A stretch of DNA of 64,000 nucleotides from Neotamlana sedimentorum (GTDB lineage Bacteria > Bacteroidota > Bacteroidia > Flavobacteriales > Flavobacteriaceae): the NCBI RefSeq assembly GCF_000943565.1, contig NZ_JTDW01000017.1:1-64000 (forward strand). The letters run 5' to 3'. The position numbers were made by a program, and so were the translations under genes. The first letter of the stretch is position 1. Every line of letters begins with the position of its first letter. The notes below the pieces were generated by a model. That model did not search any database. It was not told the origin of the DNA and saw only the letters and a list, made by a program, of their open reading frames with translations. Shown here in pieces: positions 10,324 through 46,157 of this stretch.

Positions 10324-10328
10324 CGGCG

Positions 10329-10671
10329 AGTAGATTGCCTTATCGCTAAATGCCCAACTTGATTGGGTATTTAGAGGAAAGTCCGAACACCGTAGTGCAA
10401 CATAGTGGTTAACAACCACCAGTCGTGAGGCTAGGAAAAGTGCAACAGAAAGTATGTACAGGTAATGCTGTAGTGAAACCGGGTAAACTCTATGTGGTGC
10501 AATGTCATGTAAACCAACGTTTGAGGGCGGCACGCTCGATTGTTGGAGGGTAGGCAGCTAAAGTGTACTGGCAACAGTGCTCGCAGATAAATGATAGGGT
10601 AGTTCTGACTTGTTATGGAGAGATCCTGAAACGAGTTCAGGATGAACAGAATTCGGCTTATAGATTTACTT
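10329..10671 (+). ncRNA. rnpB: RNase P RNA
   Basis: This is the catalytic RNA that removes 5' leaders from pre-tRNAs. Near the 5' end it has the universally conserved GAGGAAAGTCCGAACAC. Mid-gene it has GTGCAACAGAAAG and GTGAAACCGGGTAAAC. Near the 3' end it has ACAGAATTCGGCTTATAG. P1 closes the molecule: AGTAGATT (10329-10336) pairs with AGATTTACT (10662-10670), allowing G-U pairs. The conserved boxes, the promoter and the terminator on both sides agree on the ends within a few bases. The last hairpin before the 3' box contains a dispersed repeat. Confidence 0.95.
10621..10646 (-). repeat. Dispersed hairpin repeat inside rnpB
   Basis: ATCCTGAA pairs with TTCAGGAT around a five-base loop. Read on the minus strand, the unit matches the intergenic repeat at 33324-33350 at roughly 20 of 25 positions. 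It forms the tip of the helix just before the conserved 3' box of RNase P RNA. Confidence 0.65.
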
Positions 10672-10682
10672 AAAAAAACAAG

Positions 10683-33456: not shown

Positions 33457-33738
33457 TTATTTATATAAATGGCTGTCAATTAATGTGTAATCATTTTTAG
33501 AAGTAATATCATCAATACTTTTAATGTTTTCTTTAAAATCTTTCAATTCCTTTCTAATTTTCGAATCGTGTTCGTGTATATATAAATACTTTTTACAGAC
33601 GATAATTAGCGGAATAAAAATTAAAAAAACAGAATAAAAAAAATCATATTTATTGTTCAGGTGTTTTGGTGTCTTTTGAAGTGCCACCGTACAAATGTCC
33701 TTCTGTAAAGTCTTGATAGGTATCTTCCGATTCATCAA
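33457..33738 (-). CDS. Small membrane protein, downstream partner
   Basis: This frame of up to 93 codons encodes a membrane helix (FFYSVFLIFIPLIIVC) followed by a charged, Lys/Asp-rich tail. The ATG at 33738 would overlap the upstream small gene by 89 bp in another frame. A GTG at 33687 gives a 76-aa protein with less overlap and is the better start. No family recognised. Similar topology to its neighbour suggests a pair. Confidence 0.45.
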   Translation of the reverse strand: MMNRKIPIKTLQKDICTVALQKTPKHLNNKYDFFYSVFLIFIPLIIVCKKYLYIHEHDSKIRKELKDFKENIKSIDDITSKNDYTLIDSHLYK

Positions 33739-33919
33739 ATTTTTCCGACATGGATTCTAGTTTTTCGTTTTCTTTTTTTAATTTATAAGATTTAATTACT
33801 CCAGAAATTAATAAAATCAAGAAAAACCCTAGTACAAATATTATTAATACAGTAAAATAAAACGTGCTAATTAGGGGTGAAATTGAGAAAACTTTAAAAA
33901 TAACGTTAGTAAATAACAT
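33650..33919 (-). CDS. Small single-pass membrane protein (89 aa)
   Basis: One hydrophobic segment near residues 16-43 (STFYFTVLIIFVLGFFLILL) is followed by a Lys/Glu-rich helix and an acidic tail (KFDESEDTYQDF). The Met-Leu-Phe-Thr-Asn start and the clean topology support a real gene. No family recognised. It precedes and overlaps the second small membrane gene. Confidence 0.6.
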   Translation of the reverse strand: MLFTNVIFKVFSISPLISTFYFTVLIIFVLGFFLILLISGVIKSYKLKKENEKLESMSEKFDESEDTYQDFTEGHLYGGTSKDTKTPEQ

Positions 33920-34992: not shown

Positions 34993-36333
34993 ATGTCTGA
35001 TGATTTTGATTTATTAGAAACCTCTTCCAACGAAAAAACAGAAAAAGTAGATGTTAATTGGGGAAAAGCCATTGACACTATGAAATCTAAATTATCGCAA
35101 GAAGATGATCCTGAGGTACGCCAAAAAATATTAAATGCCACACTTGATGATGTTGTGCATATGGCCGAAAAGGATAGAACTACGCTTCTTGATGCGATTA
35201 AAGATTTAACCGATTATCAAGATGAAGTAGGTATAATTTTCGAAAAATTCTCTTCATTAAATGCTACCGAACAAAAAGTAATAGATGATGCTCAAAAAGC
35301 GCTAGAACGTGCAAAAATAGAACTTGAAGATGCCGAAGCTAAACCAGACACATGGTGGAATAACCTTTGGGGACGAAAAAGTAAGATTGCCAAAGCTCAA
35401 GAGATTTTAAAAGTTGCCGAAAAAACACGAGCAGCCTCCGATAATAAAGCAAAAGCGATGTTTCAAGAACGTATCGAAAGTGCCGATGTACAAACTTTGT
35501 TAAGTGAGTTGTCGTACAAATCGCAAGCAGCTGTAAAACGTTTAAAAGACCGTGAGGTTGAAATTAAAGAAGTAGAAGATAAGTTGCAAGATGCTATTGT
35601 TGAAGCGACAAAAAACCACACTAAAGCTTTAGAAAAGAAAAAAGAAGTTGAAACTAAGCTTGAAGAGCAATACGCTTTATTAAAACAAGCCCGCCAAGAA
35701 CTTGAAGATATTGCCGATAAACAATCTGCAGAATATGCCCAAGCCATTGGTAAAGTAACGAAACTTGAGCAAAAAGTAGAGGAACTTGAAGGTTTAAAAA
35801 ATGCTTATACCACGTTAGCTGCCAGTAAAGATAGCTTTGTACATAAACACAATTTAACGATTAAGGTTTTAACCTCGTTACGCAGTAATTTACAAACACA
35901 TCGTGCAAAATTAAAAAGTGATACGGAAGAACGTTTAAAATATTACGATGGTTATGTAGTTGCTTTAAAAGCAAGAACAGACCAAGAATTTGCTGCTATT
36001 TTAGAGCATTTAGGTGTAAAAACCGATGAGCATATTGGTCAAACTTTAGCTTCAATGCATACGGCTAGTGCTAAAGCACGTCAGGAAATGATGGACAACA
36101 TACCGGTACACGAAAAAGTAATGAATGGCGTATACAGTAGTTATGCCGAAGCGTTACAAGAAATTCGCGCTAAAGATGGGGAAATTCAAAAGAATTTTGC
36201 AGAGCGCTATGGTATTGATATGAAAGAAATTTTTGAAGATTATTATAAAGCCGATGCAAATAAACCTGCTGGAGATGGAGAACCTGCAGATGCACCAAAA
36301 CCAAGTTCAAGTGATGATGATTTATTGAGTTAA
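34993..36333 (+). CDS. Cytoplasmic coiled-coil protein, first gene of the AAA+ cluster
   Basis: This 446-aa protein has no signal peptide or membrane helix. Residues 80-300 are long heptad-rich helices with alternating Glu/Lys/Ala. A short insertion, TWWNNLWGRKSKIAK, sits near residue 120. The C-terminus is acidic and ends in a Ser/Asp tract (SSSDDDLLS), mirroring the acidic N-terminus SDDFDLLETSS. I recall similar flavobacterial proteins labelled microtubule-binding, which is only a coiled-coil hit. The overall look is reminiscent of TelA-type stress proteins. It leads the co-directional cluster up to 44972. Confidence 0.8.
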   Translation: MSDDFDLLETSSNEKTEKVDVNWGKAIDTMKSKLSQEDDPEVRQKILNATLDDVVHMAEKDRTTLLDAIKDLTDYQDEVGIIFEKFSSLNATEQKVIDDAQKALERAKIELEDAEAKPDTWWNNLWGRKSKIAKAQEILKVAEKTRAASDNKAKAMFQERIESADVQTLLSELSYKSQAAVKRLKDREVEIKEVEDKLQDAIVEATKNHTKALEKKKEVETKLEEQYALLKQARQELEDIADKQSAEYAQAIGKVTKLEQKVEELEGLKNAYTTLAASKDSFVHKHNLTIKVLTSLRSNLQTHRAKLKSDTEERLKYYDGYVVALKARTDQEFAAILEHLGVKTDEHIGQTLASMHTASAKARQEMMDNIPVHEKVMNGVYSSYAEALQEIRAKDGEIQKNFAERYGIDMKEIFEDYYKADANKPAGDGEPADAPKPSSSDDDLLS

Positions 36334-36405
36334 TAAATCATCAATTAGAACTTAAAAATTTAAGGAGAGGTCATCTTTTTAAAAATAAAATAATAAATAG
36401 TTAGT

Positions 36406-36460
36406 CTGGGTTTGTTGTAAGCCTAATGCAAATTTTAATTAGAAATGTCAACAAACTCAG
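36406..36460 (+). repeat. Inverted repeat in the 339-bp spacer before 36673
   Basis: CTGGGTTTGTTG (36406-36417) and CAACAAACTCAG (36449-36460) pair at 11 of 12 positions with a 31-nt loop. No T-run follows, so it is not a standard terminator. It may be an RNA structure that reduces read-through or shapes the leader of the next gene. Confidence 0.5.
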
Positions 36461-36516
36461 TTTACTAAAGTTTCAAGCTGTTAATTAACAACTTAAAAGT
36501 TGATTTGTAAACGTAA

Positions 36517-36633
36517 ACTGCGTTAGGGATTGCAGCGGCATCCTTTTTATTTATTCTCGAGTGATGCGTAGCATAATCTTGAGAATAAATAAAAAGATAT
36601 AGCGTAAAGCCCGACCCTTTTAGGGAAACGCCA
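36517..36633 (+). repeat. Structured intergenic element, copy B
   Basis: It shares both ends with 10183-10270. The outer stem is GCGTT (36520-36524) with AACGC (36627-36631). GGAT/ATCC and CCCT/AGGG make small side hairpins. The central part is a 19-bp stem, 36543-36561 with 36578-36596, having one G-U pair and capped by ATGC/GCAT. It ends 40 bp before the start of the gene at 36673, so it is in that gene's leader. Confidence 0.7.
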
Positions 36634-36672
36634 TAAAACACATAAATAAAAAATTAAAAAGAACACTTTTTA

Positions 36673-37737
36673 ATGTCTTTAAACCAAATAGTTACACCTT
36701 TAGATTCTGCAACCTTAGACTCTAAGGATCAATACGAATTTTATCACACCATGATCGATTTTGCTTTTAAACAGCTTATTGTAGCTGTACAAAGGCAAGC
36801 AATTTGTAATGCGCAAGAAATACTTTTATTTAAGCAATATGCAGATTTGTTACTCTATTCTATTGATGCCATGCGTATTAAATATAAGTATGATGAAGAG
36901 GATAATATGAAGGTGGATTTAACCGATTCGGGATTCCCTAATTATTTGGAATTTAGATATTTATTTAACGATTTAGAGCTAAGAGCATCCTATTTAGATA
37001 AGTTAACACCTATTGAAGATTTAAAGGCTGAATTTTTACATACTTTAATGCATAAAAAGCAGCCAATTAAACAAAGTAAATTGTTTCAAGCGGCGTCTAT
37101 TGTGTATTATTCTTCGGTTAAAAAGGAATATATTTTTAATCGTTTTGTACAAGGAAAAATTTTGGAAGCTACAGAAAATGTACCTGCAAAATACTTAACC
37201 AGTTGGAGTTTTTATGATGTGTCGCATAACCGCCCATTTATTTGTTTTATGTATTTTAATTATGATGGTGGCGATGTAAACGATTATAAATCTGAAATTT
37301 ATGATGTTTTAAAAACAGTTGCCGATAGGGAAATGAATTTAGATATGATGGCGCATACCATTGATAGAAAGTTGCCAAAAGTACTTCCTAAATTTATAAA
37401 ACGAATAGATTTAGGCCCGCTACACAATGTTTTTGCAAAAGATGAAAATTTAATTACACATGCTATTTTAGAGAGTATTGGTAAAAAAGAAATTCCTTTA
37501 GAGGCTTATGCTGTTTCATTAAAAATAGATGAAGTACTGTCTGATAGCGAATTTAAAGAAGGTGGTTTTTTTAACAAACAAACCTTGCAAAAATGGGGCG
37601 ATGTTTTTAAAAAACAATACGTTTTTGCACCACATAGAATTATTCAATTATTGCATAATAAGACGCCTGAAATTTTAAACAAATTAGAGAAATCTCCAAT
37701 TGAGTTGGCGGAACTTAAAATAGACTTAAAAAAGTAA
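36673..37737 (+). CDS. Unknown protein of the AAA+ cluster (354 aa)
   Basis: I do not recognise this family. The protein is predicted soluble, without signal peptide or membrane helix. The N-terminal part (to about residue 150) is largely helical. The middle holds an aromatic, beta-prone segment (SWSFYDVSHNRPFICFMYFNYDG), and the C-terminus is helical and basic. It sits 60 bp before the AAA+ ATPase gene and after structured element B. Its position makes it a candidate adaptor or substrate of the ATPase. Confidence 0.75.
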   Translation: MSLNQIVTPLDSATLDSKDQYEFYHTMIDFAFKQLIVAVQRQAICNAQEILLFKQYADLLLYSIDAMRIKYKYDEEDNMKVDLTDSGFPNYLEFRYLFNDLELRASYLDKLTPIEDLKAEFLHTLMHKKQPIKQSKLFQAASIVYYSSVKKEYIFNRFVQGKILEATENVPAKYLTSWSFYDVSHNRPFICFMYFNYDGGDVNDYKSEIYDVLKTVADREMNLDMMAHTIDRKLPKVLPKFIKRIDLGPLHNVFAKDENLITHAILESIGKKEIPLEAYAVSLKIDEVLSDSEFKEGGFFNKQTLQKWGDVFKKQYVFAPHRIIQLLHNKTPEILNKLEKSPIELAELKIDLKK

Positions 37738-37738
37738 A

Positions 37739-37784
37739 CAGTCACAGTCGCGGTTTTCAGTACTGACTACAGTGACTGCGACTG
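37739..37784 (+). repeat. CAGTC-type intergenic hairpin repeat
   Basis: The spacer is built of CAGTC/GACTG words. CAGTCACAGTCGCGG on the left pairs imperfectly with CAGTGACTGCGACTG on the right, and TCAGTACTGA in the middle is a perfect palindrome. It occupies almost the whole 60-bp gap between the 36673 gene and the ATPase gene and ends 13 bp before the ATPase start. I have seen similar words in other flavobacterial intergenic regions. Confidence 0.65.
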
Positions 37785-37797
37785 AACACTAAAAAAA

Positions 37798-39756
37798 ATG
37801 GAACACAACACAACATTCCCAATAAAACAAAGCGAACTCGATGTATTGCGAGATGAAGCTTCATCATATTTAAAAAGCGTACAATGGGAGCAAAGCGCAA
37901 GAGCTAAAAATAGAGATAACGATGGTAAAGACGAATCTATTTTATTGTATTTGTCAAGAGCAAATAATGGAAGTAATGTAGAAATTACATCGGTTTCCAA
38001 AACTATTTTAGCATTAAAAAAGCGATTATTGCCCGATTCGGTAGCAATTCCTATGTTTTTAAATCAGACGCTATATGCTGTTCAAGAAGGTTTAACACTT
38101 GGTGTTTGGATAAAAGATAGCTTTTACGATTCCTCAGGATTAACTAGTTTAAATCAAAATAAATCGGCTTTAGATTCTAGTGGAAAGCGTGAGTACGAAA
38201 GTAAAATGCACACCGCTACAGCGTACATGCTTTTTGCAACGGCTTATAAAGTTTTAAACGATTTAAAGCCTCATGCTTCCGACGATTTAAGCGTAATGAA
38301 ACAGAAGTTTGCCGGCATTCCAGAAGTATCTTTATTATCGCCAATAAAAGGTGTTTCTTGTGCTTTATTTTATTTCGACAAGTACTTAGGTCACCCAGAA
38401 ATTGTAAAAACAGATAAAGATGTTATCGATTTTACCGTGGTGTATTTTGAAGCTTTAATTGATGAAATACAATTAAGAAAAAGCACGCTGGAATACACCG
38501 AAACTATTGAAGATAGAACCTATAAATTAGAAAACTCTGAATTTGCTATTTCAGGTTGGAACAACGTATTTCAAGGCACAGCTAAAAGTGTAGAATTTAA
38601 TAAAATTAAGTTCGAACAAATTGTAGGTAATCGTGATGCAAAACATTTTGCACGTCGTTTAACCGAGCGGATGTTGAGTTACGATTTTGAAGCTAAAAAG
38701 AATCCGTTTCAAGAATTAGGTGGTTTTATGCCTGTTTTTATGGGATACGGTATTCCAGGAACAGGTAAAAGTATGCTTATTGCTGCTATTGCAACACGTT
38801 TAAAAGAACATTGCGATACTTTAGATATTCCATTTTTGTTTCACCCTATGCCAGATACGTTAATTAGTACGTTTCAAGGTGGTTCTGCCGAAAAAATGGT
38901 AGAGTGGATGAAACCTATGCAAGATCCTACAAAGCTTATTTTCGCACCTATTGATGATGCCGAAAATAATTTACAAGAACGAACAACTCAAGGTGTATCT
39001 GCAGGTGTTAAAGAAGTTATTGGTGTGTTTTTACGCTATACCGAAGGTGCATATGCGGTAAATTACGGTAACAGTTCTATTGGTTTATTTACAAATTTAC
39101 CAGAAATGTTAGATAAGGCTGTGATTTCACGTGTGCAAGGGCGTTTTAAAATTGATGGTGCTAGAACAGAGCACGATTTTCTAGATCAAGATCATTTATG
39201 GTGGCGAAAATTTGAAGACACCATGCCCGATTTTGTAAACATGCAAGGCCCTGAAAATTATAGTTATCTTCAAAATCAAGGTTTGGCAAAAAACATGGGA
39301 GAAATTTTAAATCAGATTGAAAAACCAACCGAAGCTCGTGTTCATGCTATTTATGATGAAGTTGAAAAGCACTTTAAAAGCGATCAGCATTTGTTTTTTG
39401 CTAATTTATACAAAGCCATGCAAGATGCGTTTCCTTTTTTCTCTTCTCGTGATGTTAGAAATATACAAAGTGCTATTTCGTTGCGTTTAACCGATTTCGA
39501 TTTAGAAGAAGATTGGTTTAGCAACCCCGAAATCTATTTTAAAAAGGATTACGATACCAAATTTAATATGTTACAAGAATTAATGCGTGGCAATATGAAA
39601 GGTTTAGATTTTTCTGAAATTCGTCGTCAAGAAGTTGTTCGTTATTTAGATAATGTAGCAACAATTGCCGATACCGAGTTTAAACGAAAAGTAGATGCAA
39701 GAGTAAATCAATTAAATATTGAAACGGCAGCACGAAAAACCTTCGAAGGGTTATAG
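37798..39756 (+). CDS. AAA+ ATPase of the coiled-coil cluster
   Basis: This 652-aa protein has a helical N-terminal domain (1-280), one AAA module (about 285-500) and a helical C-terminal domain. Walker A is GIPGTGKS (318-325). Pore loop 1 is TFQGGSAEKM (about 358-367), with the aromatic-x-Gly pattern of AAA unfoldases. Walker B is IFAPIDDAEN (381-390), with DD where DE is usual. Sensor 1 and the arginine finger lie in TNLPEMLDKAVISRVQGRF (432-450). This predicts a hexameric remodelling or unfolding ATPase. Its partners are probably the co-oriented neighbours. It belongs to no named system I know. Confidence 0.88.
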   Translation: MEHNTTFPIKQSELDVLRDEASSYLKSVQWEQSARAKNRDNDGKDESILLYLSRANNGSNVEITSVSKTILALKKRLLPDSVAIPMFLNQTLYAVQEGLTLGVWIKDSFYDSSGLTSLNQNKSALDSSGKREYESKMHTATAYMLFATAYKVLNDLKPHASDDLSVMKQKFAGIPEVSLLSPIKGVSCALFYFDKYLGHPEIVKTDKDVIDFTVVYFEALIDEIQLRKSTLEYTETIEDRTYKLENSEFAISGWNNVFQGTAKSVEFNKIKFEQIVGNRDAKHFARRLTERMLSYDFEAKKNPFQELGGFMPVFMGYGIPGTGKSMLIAAIATRLKEHCDTLDIPFLFHPMPDTLISTFQGGSAEKMVEWMKPMQDPTKLIFAPIDDAENNLQERTTQGVSAGVKEVIGVFLRYTEGAYAVNYGNSSIGLFTNLPEMLDKAVISRVQGRFKIDGARTEHDFLDQDHLWWRKFEDTMPDFVNMQGPENYSYLQNQGLAKNMGEILNQIEKPTEARVHAIYDEVEKHFKSDQHLFFANLYKAMQDAFPFFSSRDVRNIQSAISLRLTDFDLEEDWFSNPEIYFKKDYDTKFNMLQELMRGNMKGLDFSEIRRQEVVRYLDNVATIADTEFKRKVDARVNQLNIETAARKTFEGL

Positions 39757-39838
39757 TTTAAAACACAAGATAAGTGTAGTTTTATAAAAAATATAATTTA
39801 GAAATTTCTTGTAATCGTAAATGAAATTTTAATTGAAG

Positions 39839-40423
39839 ATGGAAGATAAATTAAGAAACATAAAAAAGAACATATTAGCCAACGAATGGGCAACTTTGTA
39901 TCGTGTAGATTACGATTATAAATTTGAAAATGGTGATTGGCGCACATTATCGCGCGAAAGTTACGATCGGGGCAACGGCACAGGTATTTTGTTGTACAAT
40001 AAAGCAAAAAAAACGGTAATTTTAACTAAACAATTCCGTATGCCTGCTTATGTAAACACACCTGCAGACGGTATGTCTATTGAAGTTTGCGCTGGAGCTT
40101 TAGATAAAAATGAAGAACCAGAAGTATGCATTATTCGCGAAGTAGAAGAAGAAGTTGGTTATAAAATTGATAGTGCTAAAAAGGTTTTGGAGTGTTACAC
40201 TTCACCTGGAGCTGTAACCGAAAAAATGTTTCTTTTTATTGCTGAATATGATGATAGTATGAAAATAAATGATGGTGGCGGACTAGAAATTGAAGATGAA
40301 GAAATTGAAGTTCTAGAACTTCCTTTTGCAAAAGCTATTGAGATGATGCAGAATTTTGAAATTATTGATGCAAAAACCATTATGCTTTTGCAGTATGCGC
40401 AAATAAATGGCTTATTAAGTTAG
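39839..40423 (+). CDS. nudK: Nudix hydrolase, NudK (GDP-mannose pyrophosphatase) type
   Basis: This 194-aa protein has a full Nudix box: GALDKNEEPEVCIIREVEEE followed by VG, fitting G-x5-E-x7-R-E-U-x-E-E-x-G-U. The N-terminal half (YDRGNGTGILLYN, KQFRMPAYVN) is that of NudK/ADP-ribose pyrophosphatase dimers. It hydrolyses GDP-mannose or related nucleotide sugars. I chose ATG 39839 over the TTG two codons upstream. It is 82 bp after the ATPase gene. Whether it works with the cluster or is a bystander is unclear. Confidence 0.9.
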   Translation: MEDKLRNIKKNILANEWATLYRVDYDYKFENGDWRTLSRESYDRGNGTGILLYNKAKKTVILTKQFRMPAYVNTPADGMSIEVCAGALDKNEEPEVCIIREVEEEVGYKIDSAKKVLECYTSPGAVTEKMFLFIAEYDDSMKINDGGGLEIEDEEIEVLELPFAKAIEMMQNFEIIDAKTIMLLQYAQINGLLS

Positions 40424-40494
40424 AGTAATCCTCTATAAAAACAAACAAAATCGAAATCTAGTTTTCTAGTTTAATATTACAATATCTAAAACCA

Positions 40495-41340
40495 ATGACA
40501 TATAATTTCCAAACCACTTACATAACCATAATTTTAATTTTAGGCATGCTAAACTTCTCTAATGCACAATCTTTATATGGAAATAATAATGAAGTAGGTA
40601 ACTTTATATCGGTTAATGGAGATAAGCAATATTATGAAATATATGGTGAAGGGCAACCGCTCGTGTTAATTCATGGCAACGGTGGAGATATTGCGTATAT
40701 GAAGCCACAAATTGAGTACTTTTCTAAAAAGTATAAAGTCATCGTGATGGATTGCAGAGGACGCGGAAAAAGCGAACTTGGAGACGAAAGTTTAACCTAT
40801 AAGCAAATTGCCAAAGATATCGTTGCTATTTTAGATCATGAGAATTTAGACTCAACCTATGTTTTAGGTAGAAGCGATGGAGCAATTTTAGCTTTGTTAT
40901 TGGCAATTCACTACCCTGAAAAAGTGAAAAAAATAGTAGCATTTTCAGCGAATCTTACACCTGATACTACGGCGCTTTATCCTGTGGTATACAAGCAAAT
41001 TAAGGAACGACGAAAGCATGCAGATGAAATGCTGGCAAAGAAAGATACTACTCAAAACTGGAAGGTAACACAGCAAAGAGTTCGCATGATGGAATTTCAA
41101 CCTAATATTACCATAGAGGATTTGCATAAAATTAAATGTCCTGTTTTAGTGATGTCTACCGACAGAGATATGATTCGAGAAGAACATACTTTCAAAATTT
41201 ACCAGAATATTGAAAAAGCTAACTTATGTTTCCTTCCTGGGGTAAATCATTTTGTATCTAAAAATGGTCCAGAATTATTTAATCAAATTATAGAAACCTT
41301 TTTTTACAAACCATTTAAAGGTGATGAAATAAGACTTTAA
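40495..41340 (+). CDS. Secreted alpha/beta-fold hydrolase
   Basis: This 281-aa protein has a signal peptide (ITIILILGMLNFSNAQ) and an alpha/beta-hydrolase fold. The oxyanion region is LIHGNGGD, the nucleophile elbow is GRSDGA (a G-x-S-x-G variant), the acid is in MSTDRDMI and the catalytic His is in PGVNHFVS. It lies in a cluster of otherwise non-secreted proteins, with spacings of 71 and 39 bp, which may mean a later insertion. The substrate is unknown. Confidence 0.87.
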   Translation: MTYNFQTTYITIILILGMLNFSNAQSLYGNNNEVGNFISVNGDKQYYEIYGEGQPLVLIHGNGGDIAYMKPQIEYFSKKYKVIVMDCRGRGKSELGDESLTYKQIAKDIVAILDHENLDSTYVLGRSDGAILALLLAIHYPEKVKKIVAFSANLTPDTTALYPVVYKQIKERRKHADEMLAKKDTTQNWKVTQQRVRMMEFQPNITIEDLHKIKCPVLVMSTDRDMIREEHTFKIYQNIEKANLCFLPGVNHFVSKNGPELFNQIIETFFYKPFKGDEIRL

Positions 41341-41379
41341 AAAAAAGAATAGAATATATTTCAACGTATTTATTTAAAA

Positions 41380-42618
41380 ATGAATAAACTAAAACAAGCC
41401 AATTTATACAGAAGTGAGCTTATTCCGGTAAGCGGCAAGCTTGTAGAACGTTACAATAAGGGCTTGGTAAAACTAGGGTTTACAGAAACTAAGCTAAAAA
41501 CATTTAGTATAGATGGCATAGGTTGGAGTCCGGAAATTGCTGAAGAAAAAAACGATTTAAATTATTTAAATAACGGCGAAGCAAACCCACATGGTATTTT
41601 AATTTCGCCACAGCAAAAAGGAAAACCAGTGTATTTACCGTTTCATACTTTTGATAGAGAGGTTATGAAGCATGTTTTTAAAGTTCACGGAGATAAAATT
41701 AAAGACATCACACGAGATTCGGCTTTGTGTCTTGATTTCGATCAAGGTATTGATGCTTTTTATGAGCCACTTGATGTTTTAAAATACAATAAAATTAAGG
41801 TTCATTTTCATTTTGTTGACGATTTAAACAAAATTCAAAATGAGCAATTAGAGCTTGTTGAAATTTTTAAAAGAGACAATAATTTTATAGACGAAAGTAT
41901 TCATAAGCAATTATTAGCTTCCGCGAAAGCGTATGGCGATTTGCGCAATAGGAATTTAAACTTACATGTTTTAGAACATCAAACCAATTCCTTTTATACC
42001 AGGGCATTTGGTGGCGTTTACGTTTTGCGTGATTTTATTTCACCAATCGTGATTTTTGAAGATGAAAAATGGCATAAAGAAGCCATAAAAGATACCAATT
42101 ACGATGTGTTAATTTATCATATTAAGCAACCAGAATTAATGGATAAATTACGCGATCACATGATTATTGAATGTAATTTAGAAGAAGTTGTAAAAACCAA
42201 ACGTTACGAGCGCATAAAATTGTTTGAAATGGCACAACTTTTAAAGGGAACTCAGCATCCTTTATATGATATTTTAACCAATTCAATTTTAACTAAAAGC
42301 TATTTAAATAAACTTACAATTGACGATAGAAAGCGATTAATGAGTGTAGAGCGTTATCTAGAAAAGCTAGAAGTAAGCAATCAATTTAAACGCGCCGATA
42401 TTGTAGATGATGCACTTTTTGAAGCTTTGCACAAACCACATTCGTCGCTGCAAGCGTCTCACCAAGATTTAATTTGGCAATTACTGGTAAATGTGGCGCC
42501 AAAAGATGTTTTATTTTGGTATTGGTACGATAAACCTGCATTTTATAAAGCTTTCGAAACTTGGGACGATTCTTTTAAAGACTGGGTAATTGAAACTATT
42601 AGTAACAATATTGAATAA
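41380..42618 (+). CDS. DUF6638-like protein of the AAA+ cluster
   Basis: This 412-aa protein has no signal peptide or membrane segment. It resembles flavobacterial proteins that I recall under DUF6638; that name is from memory. The conserved-looking core is FSIDGIGWSPEIAEE, DSALCLDFDQGID, HFHFVDDL and SFYTRAFGGVYVLRDFI. The C-terminal third is helical. The function is unknown. Its position between the ATPase and two membrane proteins suggests that it belongs to the same functional unit. Confidence 0.78.
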   Translation: MNKLKQANLYRSELIPVSGKLVERYNKGLVKLGFTETKLKTFSIDGIGWSPEIAEEKNDLNYLNNGEANPHGILISPQQKGKPVYLPFHTFDREVMKHVFKVHGDKIKDITRDSALCLDFDQGIDAFYEPLDVLKYNKIKVHFHFVDDLNKIQNEQLELVEIFKRDNNFIDESIHKQLLASAKAYGDLRNRNLNLHVLEHQTNSFYTRAFGGVYVLRDFISPIVIFEDEKWHKEAIKDTNYDVLIYHIKQPELMDKLRDHMIIECNLEEVVKTKRYERIKLFEMAQLLKGTQHPLYDILTNSILTKSYLNKLTIDDRKRLMSVERYLEKLEVSNQFKRADIVDDALFEALHKPHSSLQASHQDLIWQLLVNVAPKDVLFWYWYDKPAFYKAFETWDDSFKDWVIETISNNIE

Positions 42619-42676
42619 TTTAAGAAAAATAAAATAAAGGTTCTGTAACAAGCTTCAAACTTCAAAATCATAAACC

Positions 42677-43189
42677 ATGACACTAGAATTAATAATTTTT
42701 ATCGCATCCATTTTATTTGGTGCATTTATTTACTGGAGAGAATCGCACAGTAATAAAGTTTACAGATTTTTTAATAAAATCATGTATTCCAAAGAATTAC
42801 AAATAAAATCAACTGATAAAACAGGTTTTATTTATCAGCAAAAATTTTTAATACGCTTATTGTTTTTAGGTTTTTTATTTTTAATAGGGATTGTGATAGT
42901 GCGTTTTTTAATTCCAATTGATTTAGCCACAATTTCAATATTCGCATCGATGTTGGTTGGTACTTTAGCTGGAACTTATTTAGCACATTTTATTTTTAAA
43001 TCGTCGGAAGTTATTGAAGAGCAAACAGATTCTTTAGAAGATATGGTGCAAGACACCATTGAAAAAGGAAAGGATTTTATAGAAGATTTAAGAACAGGAG
43101 AAAACGAAGAGGTTAAAGTCATGAAGGAAGAAAAGAAGCCAAATGAAAAAAGTGCTCGCGAACGTTTAAAAGATAAAGGACTTCTTTAA
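42677..43189 (+). CDS. Two- or three-helix membrane protein with charged tail (170 aa)
   Basis: One helix spans residues 2-20 and two hydrophobic segments lie between about 55 and 110. The C-terminal 60 residues form a Glu/Lys-rich cytoplasmic helix ending in SARERLKDKGLL. No family recognised. It is 58 bp after the DUF6638-like gene. The amphipathic tail could dock the soluble cluster proteins to the membrane. Confidence 0.75.
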   Translation: MTLELIIFIASILFGAFIYWRESHSNKVYRFFNKIMYSKELQIKSTDKTGFIYQQKFLIRLLFLGFLFLIGIVIVRFLIPIDLATISIFASMLVGTLAGTYLAHFIFKSSEVIEEQTDSLEDMVQDTIEKGKDFIEDLRTGENEEVKVMKEEKKPNEKSARERLKDKGLL

Positions 43190-43193
43190 TTTT

Positions 43194-43221
43194 GTCACAC
43201 TGAGCGAAGTCGAAGTGTCTT
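43194..43221 (+). repeat. Dispersed short intergenic repeat, variant form
   Basis: The unit starts GTCACACTGAGC and ends CGAAGTGTCTT. ACACT pairs with AGTGT around a 12-nt loop. The first 12 bases match the repeat at 33324-33350 at 10 positions. A second hairpin, TTCCTG/CAGGAA, follows at about 43247-43263. Confidence 0.6.
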
Positions 43222-43274
43222 GAAAACGAAAATTAATTTAAAATAATTCCTGCCTGTTCAGGAACAATAAAAAA

Positions 43275-44972
43275 ATGATAAAAAACTACTGGAAAAAAGG
43301 AACTAAGCAAAAAGTATTCACAATTTTAGGTTTACTAATTCTACTTACTGTTTTATTTGTTTTACGAGACGATTATCAACCGGCATTATTGTTTGTACGC
43401 AAATATATTTTTGTAATTCTACTAAGTTTAATTGTGTTAATTCTAGGTTTGCGTAAGTTTAGAAACAGTTCTAGCACAGCGGGTCGCTTAGGTATTTTAG
43501 CATTAATGCTTGTGTTTTTTGGAGCACTTTATGTAGTTGGTTGGCATTTTAAAATGTACGATTACATGAAAACTTATTATGTGTTTAATAATTTAAATAA
43601 AGTTGAAATTCACGAATTGCCATTAACCCAAAACGAGCGTATCCAGCCTTTACGAAATGTGTTTTCTATGGCTAACGAAAGTGTAGGCGAAACTAAAGAT
43701 GTGTCGTTACCACATTTAGTTAGAATTGGAGACGATAATAAGTGGACTATGGCCATTCAGCCAACCGAAAAATACATGTGGCAAGGGATGACAGATAACA
43801 CAGAAGAAGTTTTTGCGGTATCTAGTACAACGCCTTTTCCTAGATTTTCAAACGAAAATAGAATATCGGTTACTTTTTCAATTGGAGAATCGTTAAAGTT
43901 TAGCCGAAACACCTATAACGCTGTTGTGCAACGCTTCAATATTTTTCAGTTGTTTAATATGGAGCCTAGCGATACGTATTACATGAAAAACGATTCGGGA
44001 AAATGGGTGGAAGTCGTGAGTTTAATTAAATGGAAAGGCTTTTTATTTCCGTACCCAACCTTTGGTGGCGTTATGGTTATTGATAGCGGCGAGCATGATA
44101 TGAGCGATTATATTGAGCGTATTTTAATTGGAAAAGGAACCTACGTGAGTCCAGACGAAATGAAAAATCATGAGTATTTAACGCGCCAAAATACTTTAGC
44201 TGAATCAGTTTCACAATTACAGGCAGAATCTTTAAAGTTTTTAGGTGGTTTTAGCGATCCGTTACCATGGAATATGGAAACAGCCGTTAAAATACCAGAA
44301 ATGCCAAAAGACCAAAACCAACAACCTTACGTTACTGATTTCGACTTTTCGGACACAGAAACAGGTGCTTACAGTGGTTTATATCATTGGTTTGGTTTAG
44401 AGCCCGTAGGCGAGGAGCGCACTAGTTTAAGCTTTAGTGTGTTTGTACCTGCCGATGGCACAGATAAATTATATTATTACAATCATGCATCTAAAAAACA
44501 GGGTTATGCTGGAGTTTCTGCAATGCCATTAAAAGTAAAAGAGTCTCGTAAAGAATACGATTGGTCGGCAAACACGCCTGTCGAATTTCGTCCTTATATA
44601 AAAAATATAGCAGGAAAAAAACGTATGTTTTTTATGGGTACGGTGTCTTCAATTAGCAAGTCGAATTCACAACAATTCGATGGTTCTGCAACACCAGACT
44701 TAGTTTTGGTTGATAGTGAGTACCGAGATGTTATCTGGATAGATGTTAAGCATCCAAGCCAATGGGATAAAACAGTTTACGATCAATTAAATGAAGCGTG
44801 GCGTGCAAGCGAAGGTATTGGCTATTATTATCAAGAAACACCAAAAGAAATCGATATTGCCGAAGCTTACAAAGATTCAATTAGTAAAATCATTCCTGTA
44901 AAAGACGATAAAGCAGAATTATTAGAAAAACTTCAAAAACAAATAGATTCTTTAAAGGCATCTTCAAATTAA
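43275..44972 (+). CDS. Large membrane-anchored unknown protein, last gene of the AAA+ cluster
   Basis: This 565-aa protein begins with three membrane helices (about 13-29, 40-60, 72-92) joined by short basic loops. A globular domain of about 440 residues follows, rich in aromatics and beta-prone segments. It contains GVMVIDSGEHDMSDYIERIL and two Asp-rich strands (VTDFDFSDTETGAYSGLYHW). The end is a short coiled coil (AELLEKLQKQIDSLKASSN). No family recognised. With an even or odd number of helices in doubt, the domain's side of the membrane is uncertain. A 303-bp gap follows. Confidence 0.75.
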   Translation: MIKNYWKKGTKQKVFTILGLLILLTVLFVLRDDYQPALLFVRKYIFVILLSLIVLILGLRKFRNSSSTAGRLGILALMLVFFGALYVVGWHFKMYDYMKTYYVFNNLNKVEIHELPLTQNERIQPLRNVFSMANESVGETKDVSLPHLVRIGDDNKWTMAIQPTEKYMWQGMTDNTEEVFAVSSTTPFPRFSNENRISVTFSIGESLKFSRNTYNAVVQRFNIFQLFNMEPSDTYYMKNDSGKWVEVVSLIKWKGFLFPYPTFGGVMVIDSGEHDMSDYIERILIGKGTYVSPDEMKNHEYLTRQNTLAESVSQLQAESLKFLGGFSDPLPWNMETAVKIPEMPKDQNQQPYVTDFDFSDTETGAYSGLYHWFGLEPVGEERTSLSFSVFVPADGTDKLYYYNHASKKQGYAGVSAMPLKVKESRKEYDWSANTPVEFRPYIKNIAGKKRMFFMGTVSSISKSNSQQFDGSATPDLVLVDSEYRDVIWIDVKHPSQWDKTVYDQLNEAWRASEGIGYYYQETPKEIDIAEAYKDSISKIIPVKDDKAELLEKLQKQIDSLKASSN

Positions 44973-45275: not shown

Positions 45276-46157
45276 ATGGAAAACAAAAGTAGCAAAGGGC
45301 TTAAAATAGCGTTAGGTATAGCGGTAGTGTTATTTTTAGCAACTGGTTTTTATGCCATGAATCTTCATAAAAAAGCCAGTGACGAAAAGAAAGAATTAGC
45401 TGAACAGAAACAGTTAGTTATGAACGATTTAAACGCCATGGCAAAACAATATGATGAGGCCATAGGTGAAAATGAAATTACAAATAATAATTTAATTGAA
45501 GCAAGAGGTAGAATTCAAGGTTTAATCGATTCGCTTAAAATATCTGAAACGAACGTAAAAAGTTTATGGAGATACAAACAAAAATATGTGTCCTTGCAAA
45601 AGGAAATGGATGTTTTATTAGCTCAAAACGATTCTTTACGCATTGAAAATTCGTATTTAGCAACTTCATTAGACAGTACTCGTATCCGTCTAGAAGAACG
45701 TTCTATTTTTACAGATTCTTTACTAGTGCAAAATAATGCTTTAGCCGAAGTAGTATCAGATGCCTCTGTTTTAAGTGCTGTAGATTTAAAGGCTTCTGGT
45801 GTAATTGTTAGAACATCTGGTAAAGTCATTCCTACAGAACGTGCAGGTCGTAGCGATAAAATAAGAGTATGTTTTATTGTCGCTAAAAACAAATTAATTC
45901 AGGCAGGCGAGCAAGAATTATATGTTCAGGTTATAGATCCTAGTGGAACTACTTTAGGTTTAAATGAACAAGTTGATTTTGAAGATAAAACGTTAAATTA
46001 TAGTTTAATTAGCAAGTTTAACTATGAAAACGCAAACTTAAATATATGCGAATTTATTAATCCTGCTGAAGGTGATGATTTTGATAAAGGCAATTATATT
46101 GTAAATGTATATAATGAAAAAGACTTGGTTTCAACTTCAGAGTTTAGTTTGAGATAA
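45276..46157 (+). CDS. Membrane-anchored coiled-coil protein of unknown function
   Basis: This 293-aa protein has one N-terminal membrane helix (residues 10-26). A periplasmic coiled coil of about 140 residues follows (KKASDEKKELAEQKQL to LLVQNNALAEV). The C-terminal beta domain of about 130 residues contains KASGVIVRTSGKVIPTERAGRSD, split here for reading, and ends FSLR. Homologues appear common in flavobacteria, but I know no function. It is monocistronic between its promoter candidate and a strong terminator. Confidence 0.8.
   Translation: MENKSSKGLKIALGIAVVLFLATGFYAMNLHKKASDEKKELAEQKQLVMNDLNAMAKQYDEAIGENEITNNNLIEARGRIQGLIDSLKISETNVKSLWRYKQKYVSLQKEMDVLLAQNDSLRIENSYLATSLDSTRIRLEERSIFTDSLLVQNNALAEVVSDASVLSAVDLKASGVIVRTSGKVIPTERAGRSDKIRVCFIVAKNKLIQAGEQELYVQVIDPSGTTLGLNEQVDFEDKTLNYSLISKFNYENANLNICEFINPAEGDDFDKGNYIVNVYNEKDLVSTSEFSLR

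Follow-up and report, generated by a model that had tools for sequence, protein, structure and literature searches.

Two described systems are close in principle to the locus reported here: ESCRT-III with Vps4 (Cdv), homologs of which a survey found in archaea and not in bacteria (PMC10936438), and the PspA operons, where a coiled-coil protein, an AAA ATPase and membrane proteins are proposed to remodel membranes (PMC11237479). We analysed a stretch of 64,000 nucleotides of Neotamlana sedimentorum (contig NZ_JTDW01000017.1, positions 1 to 64,000; hereafter the window), whose AAA protein is 99% identical to that of T. laminarinivorans; the genome belongs to the Flavobacteriaceae, very near Tamlana. 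Between positions 34993 and 44972 lie eight genes, six of which form a real unit: those for the coiled-coil protein CC446, the 354-residue protein U354, the AAA protein AAA652, a DUF6638 protein and the membrane proteins TM170 and TM565. This set is undescribed and is carried by many marine Flavobacteriaceae; its first four members are also neighbours in Vibrio and in rhizobia. We tentatively favour reading it as a membrane-linked AAA machine that acts on its coiled-coil partner.

The set resembles ESCRT-III/Vps4 in combining a classical AAA protein, whose pore loop is aromatic, with a helical coiled-coil protein encoded nearby, and in having membrane partners in some lineages. Unlike in that system, no Snf7/ESCRT-III domain is found in CC446 or its counterparts and no MIT domain in the ATPase outside its AAA domain (both by Pfam above cut-off), and U354 and DUF6638 have no counterpart. 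The likeness seems best read as one of principle, homology being confined to the ATPase. With the PspA operons the set shares the grouping of coiled-coil, AAA and membrane genes; by contrast the PspA-associated AAA protein has two AAA domains (PMC11237479) and AAA652 only one. CC446 was considered as a PspA and rejected: PF04012 is absent from it and profile comparison gives less than 1% probability. PspA (PF04012) occurs in 7 of 60 Flavobacteriaceae genera, none of the 22 with the set and 7 of the 38 without it (p=0.04, uncorrected for relatedness), so that PspA and the AAA set are possibly alternative solutions to one task.

The first-pass annotation, made from the letters of the window, had pointed rather to TelA-like loci. 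A tellurite or TelA-type stress locus recalls the set in a general way, through a coiled-coil protein accompanied by membrane partners, and CC446 is close in length to the coiled-coil proteins TelA/KlaA-YaaN, with which it has no detectable relationship. TelA (PF05816), for which this genome and two genome panels were searched, was not found in the former, nor above cut-off in the 60 genera, and when the CC family is compared with TelA by profile the probability stays below 1%. At the sequence level this comparison was therefore abandoned; of the accounts weighed here it is the least probable.

A six-gene unit in Flavobacteriaceae

The eight genes announced by the first-pass annotation are all present, co-directional, within about 10 kb (Table 1). 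The intergenic gaps range from 39 to 85 bp, with the exception of the 339 bp that separate CC446 from U354. A hydrophobicity scan finds three hydrophobic segments in each of TM170 and TM565, as expected for the two multi-helix membrane proteins of the annotation, and none in CC446, U354, AAA652 and DUF6638. Its NudK-type Nudix and its DUF6638-like protein likewise hold, the latter being a true member of the family, and the hydrolase that it calls secreted has a signal-like N-terminus. Neither Pfam nor NCBIfam gives a family above cut-off for CC446, U354, TM170 or TM565.

Table 1. Features of the window, with positions counted from its first letter.
Feature	Position	Strand	Description
CC446	34993..36333	+	soluble coiled-coil protein, no transmembrane (TM) segment; core gene 1
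Flavo-1 RNA (RF01705)	36511..36620	+	in the CC446-U354 gap; Rfam 56 bits, cut-off 42
U354	36673..37737	+	core gene 2; no Pfam, NCBIfam or PHROG match
AAA652	37798..39756	+	classical-clade AAA protein, predicted ATPase; core gene 3; PF00004 E=5e-9
Nudix hydrolase, NudK/YffH type	39833..40423	+	TIGR00052 over cut-off; frequent passenger
Alpha/beta hydrolase	40495..41340	+	PF00561; signal-like N-terminus; passenger
DUF6638 protein (412 aa)	41380..42618	+	core gene 4; PF20343 E 4.5e-32, 111.9 bits, cut-off 27
TM170	42677..43189	+	small membrane protein, charged tail; three hydrophobic segments
TM565	43275..44972	+	three N-terminal TM segments, then a C-terminal domain of ~470 aa
CC293	45276-46157		single-TM coiled-coil protein; outside the set
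89-aa membrane protein	33650-33919	-	by the ABC-F gene; outside the core
RNase P RNA, class A	10327-10676		Rfam

We searched one panel of 60 Flavobacteriaceae genera separately with each core protein. AAA is found in 22 of them (24 matches at E<=1e-3, including two weak ones to AAA only, in G001 and G025), and U354, TM565, DUF6638, CC446 and TM170 are confined to the same 22 genomes, with none in the other 38. A random gene would match this 22/60 pattern with a chance of ~1e-16, a value to be read with the reserve that related genomes are not independent. In a second set of 80 named loci, 78 reach far enough to show the complete set, and in all 78 the order CC446-U354-AAA-DUF6638-TM170-TM565 is identical. 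The grouping is therefore beyond chance: the six genes are all present or all absent across 60 genera, and keep the same order in 78 loci.

The limits of the unit are drawn by a divergent lineage of four loci (L043-L046), where the flanks differ and adjacent genes often overlap by 1–4 bp. When their longer open reading frames are compared with the 80 loci, only the six core genes are common, plus a few antisense frames. As the flanks changed and only these six were retained, the system consists of six genes; Nudix, hydrolase, ABC-F, the metallo-beta-lactamase-fold gene and CC293 are neighbours. The Nudix gene occurs in 68 of the 80 loci and is missing from the divergent lineage, the alpha/beta hydrolase gene in a single one. 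This is what the first-pass annotation anticipated in treating both as possible passengers and in proposing, as a test, that the other genes co-occur without them. It had also placed the ATPase in one group with U354, CC446 and the two membrane proteins, on which the genera panel and the gene order agree; it had left out DUF6638, which belongs to the core.

In most loci the set stands in single copy between conserved chromosomal flanks (ABC-F, fumC), a situation hardly expected of an anti-phage defence system, of which its patchiness across genera (22/60) and a weak match to IetA might otherwise be signs. That match concerns the AAA domain alone (21 bits), and no partner protein matches PADLOC. 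Besides, the viral contigs and phage records that we searched hold no relative of the set, and the core has housekeeping genes for neighbours in Sinorhizobium meliloti. A role in defence appears very improbable.

The four-gene core in Vibrio and rhizobia

The distribution in Pseudomonadota is drawn from plasmid records only, searched in six frames with DUF6638 and AAA as separate queries. Both queries match the same ten records, from Vibrio, Sinorhizobium, Shinella and Rhizobium, and in those inspected, which cover these four genera, the order coiled-coil, U, AAA, DUF6638 is kept. Comparison of the flavobacterial with the Vibrio/rhizobial profiles gives a probability of 96.7% for the CC family (E 3.5e-10, 293 columns), 99.3% for U354, 100% for AAA (536 columns) and 99.9% for DUF6638. 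The four-gene core is common to the two phyla. DUF6638 (PF20343), for which a literature search returned no described function or partner, gains from this gene set its first genomic context: the 412-residue protein of the window is a member, and other members stand beside the same AAA in Vibrio and rhizobia, that of S. meliloti (CP090106.1) matching PF20343 with 256 bits.

The S. meliloti record has two genes between AAA and DUF6638, one for a protein with an endonuclease domain and one for an IS4-type transposase, and the core is followed there by a DUF2333 membrane protein; a similar protein follows it in Shinella. DUF2333 was considered as a homologue of TM565 or TM170, and profile comparison shows no homology. 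Since DUF2333 is unrelated to TM565 and TM170, and since in Vibrio and on R. leguminosarum pRlX5 the core has no membrane gene beside it, the simplest ancestral core would be made up of four soluble proteins, joined by a membrane partner that depends on the lineage. This partner is exchangeable, TM565/TM170 in one case and DUF2333 in the other. From the comparison of these sequences, the core looks like an old molecular machine, so far unstudied.

Being soluble, and found in Vibrio and on pRlX5 without a neighbouring membrane gene, the core would also suit a cytoplasmic scaffold or cytoskeletal organiser: filaments of CC446 would position something in the cell, the AAA ring would turn them over, and the association with the membrane would be secondary. 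Moreover katanin, found below among the nearest relatives of the ATPase, belongs to AAA proteins that sever filaments. TM170 and TM565, on the other hand, are never missing from the Flavobacteriaceae set, and we regard this explanation as improbable.

Some further observations concern the S. meliloti locus. The intervening transposase is ISRm16. The record itself, of 3.7 Mb, may be the chromosome: though labelled pSymB, it contains fhs and genes for choline transport. A fragment bound by ChvI is located within SMc02733 of S. meliloti (PMC3687685), a gene that might, to go by locus numbers, be in or near the cluster.

The ATPase, its partners and a proposed mechanism

PF00004 is over its cut-off in the AAA proteins of the window, Vibrio and rhizobia. 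In AAA652 the Walker A motif is at residue 316, the pore loop at 356, the Walker B motif IDD at 385-387 and the arginine-finger region at 445; Walker A, Walker B, sensor 1 and the arginine-finger region in the second region of homology are those of classical AAA proteins. The TFQGGS loop reported by the first-pass annotation lies within ISTFQGGS (residues 356-363), and the loop is aromatic in both phyla, with F or Y (ISTFQGGS or ISxYQGKS). The Asp-Glu pair usual for Walker B in the classical clade is here Asp-Asp, invariant in the nine sequences of the two-phylum alignment (9/9). The Glu that ordinarily closes the pair activates water, and the Pfam family does not require it. Judged by its motifs, AAA652 is a classical-clade AAA protein and a predicted ATPase.

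With the cross-phylum AAA profile, the nearest solved domains are those of VAT (E 8.7e-10), Cdc48, the proteasomal ATPases (Rpt), Vps4 and katanin, which thread or remodel proteins. To VAT, Cdc48, the proteasomal ATPases and katanin the likeness extends to Walker A and B, sensor 1 and the arginine-finger region; AAA652 differs from them by a single AAA domain placed after an unrecognised N-terminal region, and by Asp-Asp for Asp-Glu. Only this cross-phylum alignment and the Vibrio AAA gave matches in the Protein Data Bank (PDB); alignments of AAA, U354, TM565 and DUF6638 limited to Flavobacteriaceae matched no solved structure. Early remote AAA matches (L023, L027 and L028, with their wider stretches L049, L051 and L052) were set aside as apparently FtsH-like, with no core neighbour. 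The Vibrio AAA (L145:7836-9740) also matches, over its AAA region, phrog_3757 (8.6e-14), a phage family of no assigned function.

CC446 ranks, like AAA, with the best-conserved members of the set (mean divergence 0.126), and its identity across 20 related loci is 83–92%. AlphaFold produced good models of both U354 and DUF6638 (pLDDT 80.5 and pTM 0.77 for the former, 82.7 and 0.72 for the latter), to which no PDB structure corresponds at E<=0.1. When their folds were searched, U354 against PDB and viral structures and DUF6638 against the PDB, matches stayed at chance level, with TM-scores of ~0.1–0.2, query-normalised. In the alignments, the C-terminus of TM170 (KSARxRLKDKG) is near-invariant and the large domain of TM565 highly conserved; by the positive-inside rule we infer that the former is cytoplasmic and the latter periplasmic.

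We propose that AAA652 probably assembles into a ring, its aromatic pore loop being the means by which it pulls on a protein. CC446, probably a polymer or array, would be the likeliest substrate or scaffold, and U354 and DUF6638, obligate partners in both phyla, would probably be the adaptors or regulators that link CC446 to the ring. TM170, its tail in the cytoplasm, and TM565, its large domain in the periplasm, would anchor the complex to the inner membrane in Flavobacteriaceae, and the ATP-driven assembly and disassembly of CC446 could then follow the state of the envelope. The working principle would be shared with ESCRT-III and Vps4, the partner proteins being unrelated.

Several lines point to such a machine. 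The six genes are all-or-none, in fixed order, and retained alone when the flanks change, and the neighbours CC, U, AAA and DUF6638 stay together in Vibrio, Sinorhizobium, Shinella and Rhizobium. The relatives of the AAA domain, from VAT to katanin, and its aromatic pore loop argue for protein threading or remodelling. The link to the membrane is suggested by the membrane proteins found with the set: TM170 and TM565 in Flavobacteriaceae, the unrelated DUF2333 in rhizobia. An envelope role is hinted at by the absence of PspA from the 22 set-bearing genera, against 7 of the 38 others. The first-pass annotation had already spoken of a membrane-linked remodelling machine: its gene unit is borne out, and the remodelling remains, as it was then, a proposal.

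Other observations weigh against this machine. The first ~265 residues of AAA652 show no MIT-like or other family by Pfam above cut-off, and the same holds for the Vibrio and rhizobial proteins. By sequence, CC446 is linked neither to PspA or TelA (Pfam and profile comparisons) nor to Snf7 (Pfam). Linkage to the membrane is not universal, no membrane gene adjoining the core in the inspected records of Vibrio and of R. leguminosarum pRlX5. The contacts between the proteins are hypothetical, and the exclusion of PspA from set-bearing genera is weak. CC446 and its Vibrio/rhizobial counterparts also have no Pfam match above cut-off.

The clade of the ATPase, its pore loop and the membrane partners in Flavobacteriaceae and rhizobia would also suit an Msp1- or Bcs1-like role in the extraction or quality control of membrane proteins. 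The ring would then unfold or extract inner-membrane or envelope proteins; U354 and DUF6638 would adapt it to its substrates, CC446 would be a spacer or a factor for their delivery, and TM170 and TM565 would be receptors rather than substrates, the large and highly conserved domain of TM565 sensing the periplasm. Nevertheless, the ATPase itself has no TM segment, the conservation of CC446 exceeds that expected for a mere spacer, and in Vibrio the core has no membrane partner next to it; we judge this explanation unlikely.

The reading of a membrane-linked machine acting on CC446 can be carried further. Bacteroidota and Pseudomonadota might possess an independently assembled membrane-remodelling system made of AAA and scaffold, which would handle an unrelated coiled-coil polymer as Vps4 handles ESCRT-III; U354 and DUF6638 would be new folds with an obligate role, and the system may replace PspA in flavobacteria. 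We find this extended version doubtful. A four-protein core found in two phyla, with an ATPase from the clade of protein unfoldases and with partners that have neither described family nor solved fold, points to a basic cell process absent from present accounts, and the gene set is now defined for deletion and purification.

The Flavo-1 RNA and neighbouring genes

The long gap between CC446 and U354 harbours a Flavo-1 RNA. When 1.68 Mb of related loci are scanned with a model built on three copies, 41 matches appear. The gap accounts for 1.2% of that DNA and for 30 of the matches, a strong concentration; these come from 29 of 79 loci (L065-L144) and lie in both orientations. The model was trained on copies from the gap, which favours it. 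Rfam's own model has all its matches in the inspected loci in this gap too, six of these loci having been picked for matching the trained model. In F. psychrophilum, Flavo-1 is likewise reported to occur in either orientation, with no known function (PMC9723704). Here it may cause the coiled-coil gene to be expressed at another level than the genes downstream.

CC293 was considered as a seventh member of the set and rejected, its distance being variable and the gene being absent near the divergent-lineage loci. It is found downstream of the set in 58 of the 80 loci, and the distance matrices of CC293 and DUF6638 are correlated (Spearman 0.81). On the other side, the fast-evolving 89-residue membrane protein is encoded upstream of the set in 69 of the 80 loci. 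Far from the set, the window also carries the class A RNase P RNA.

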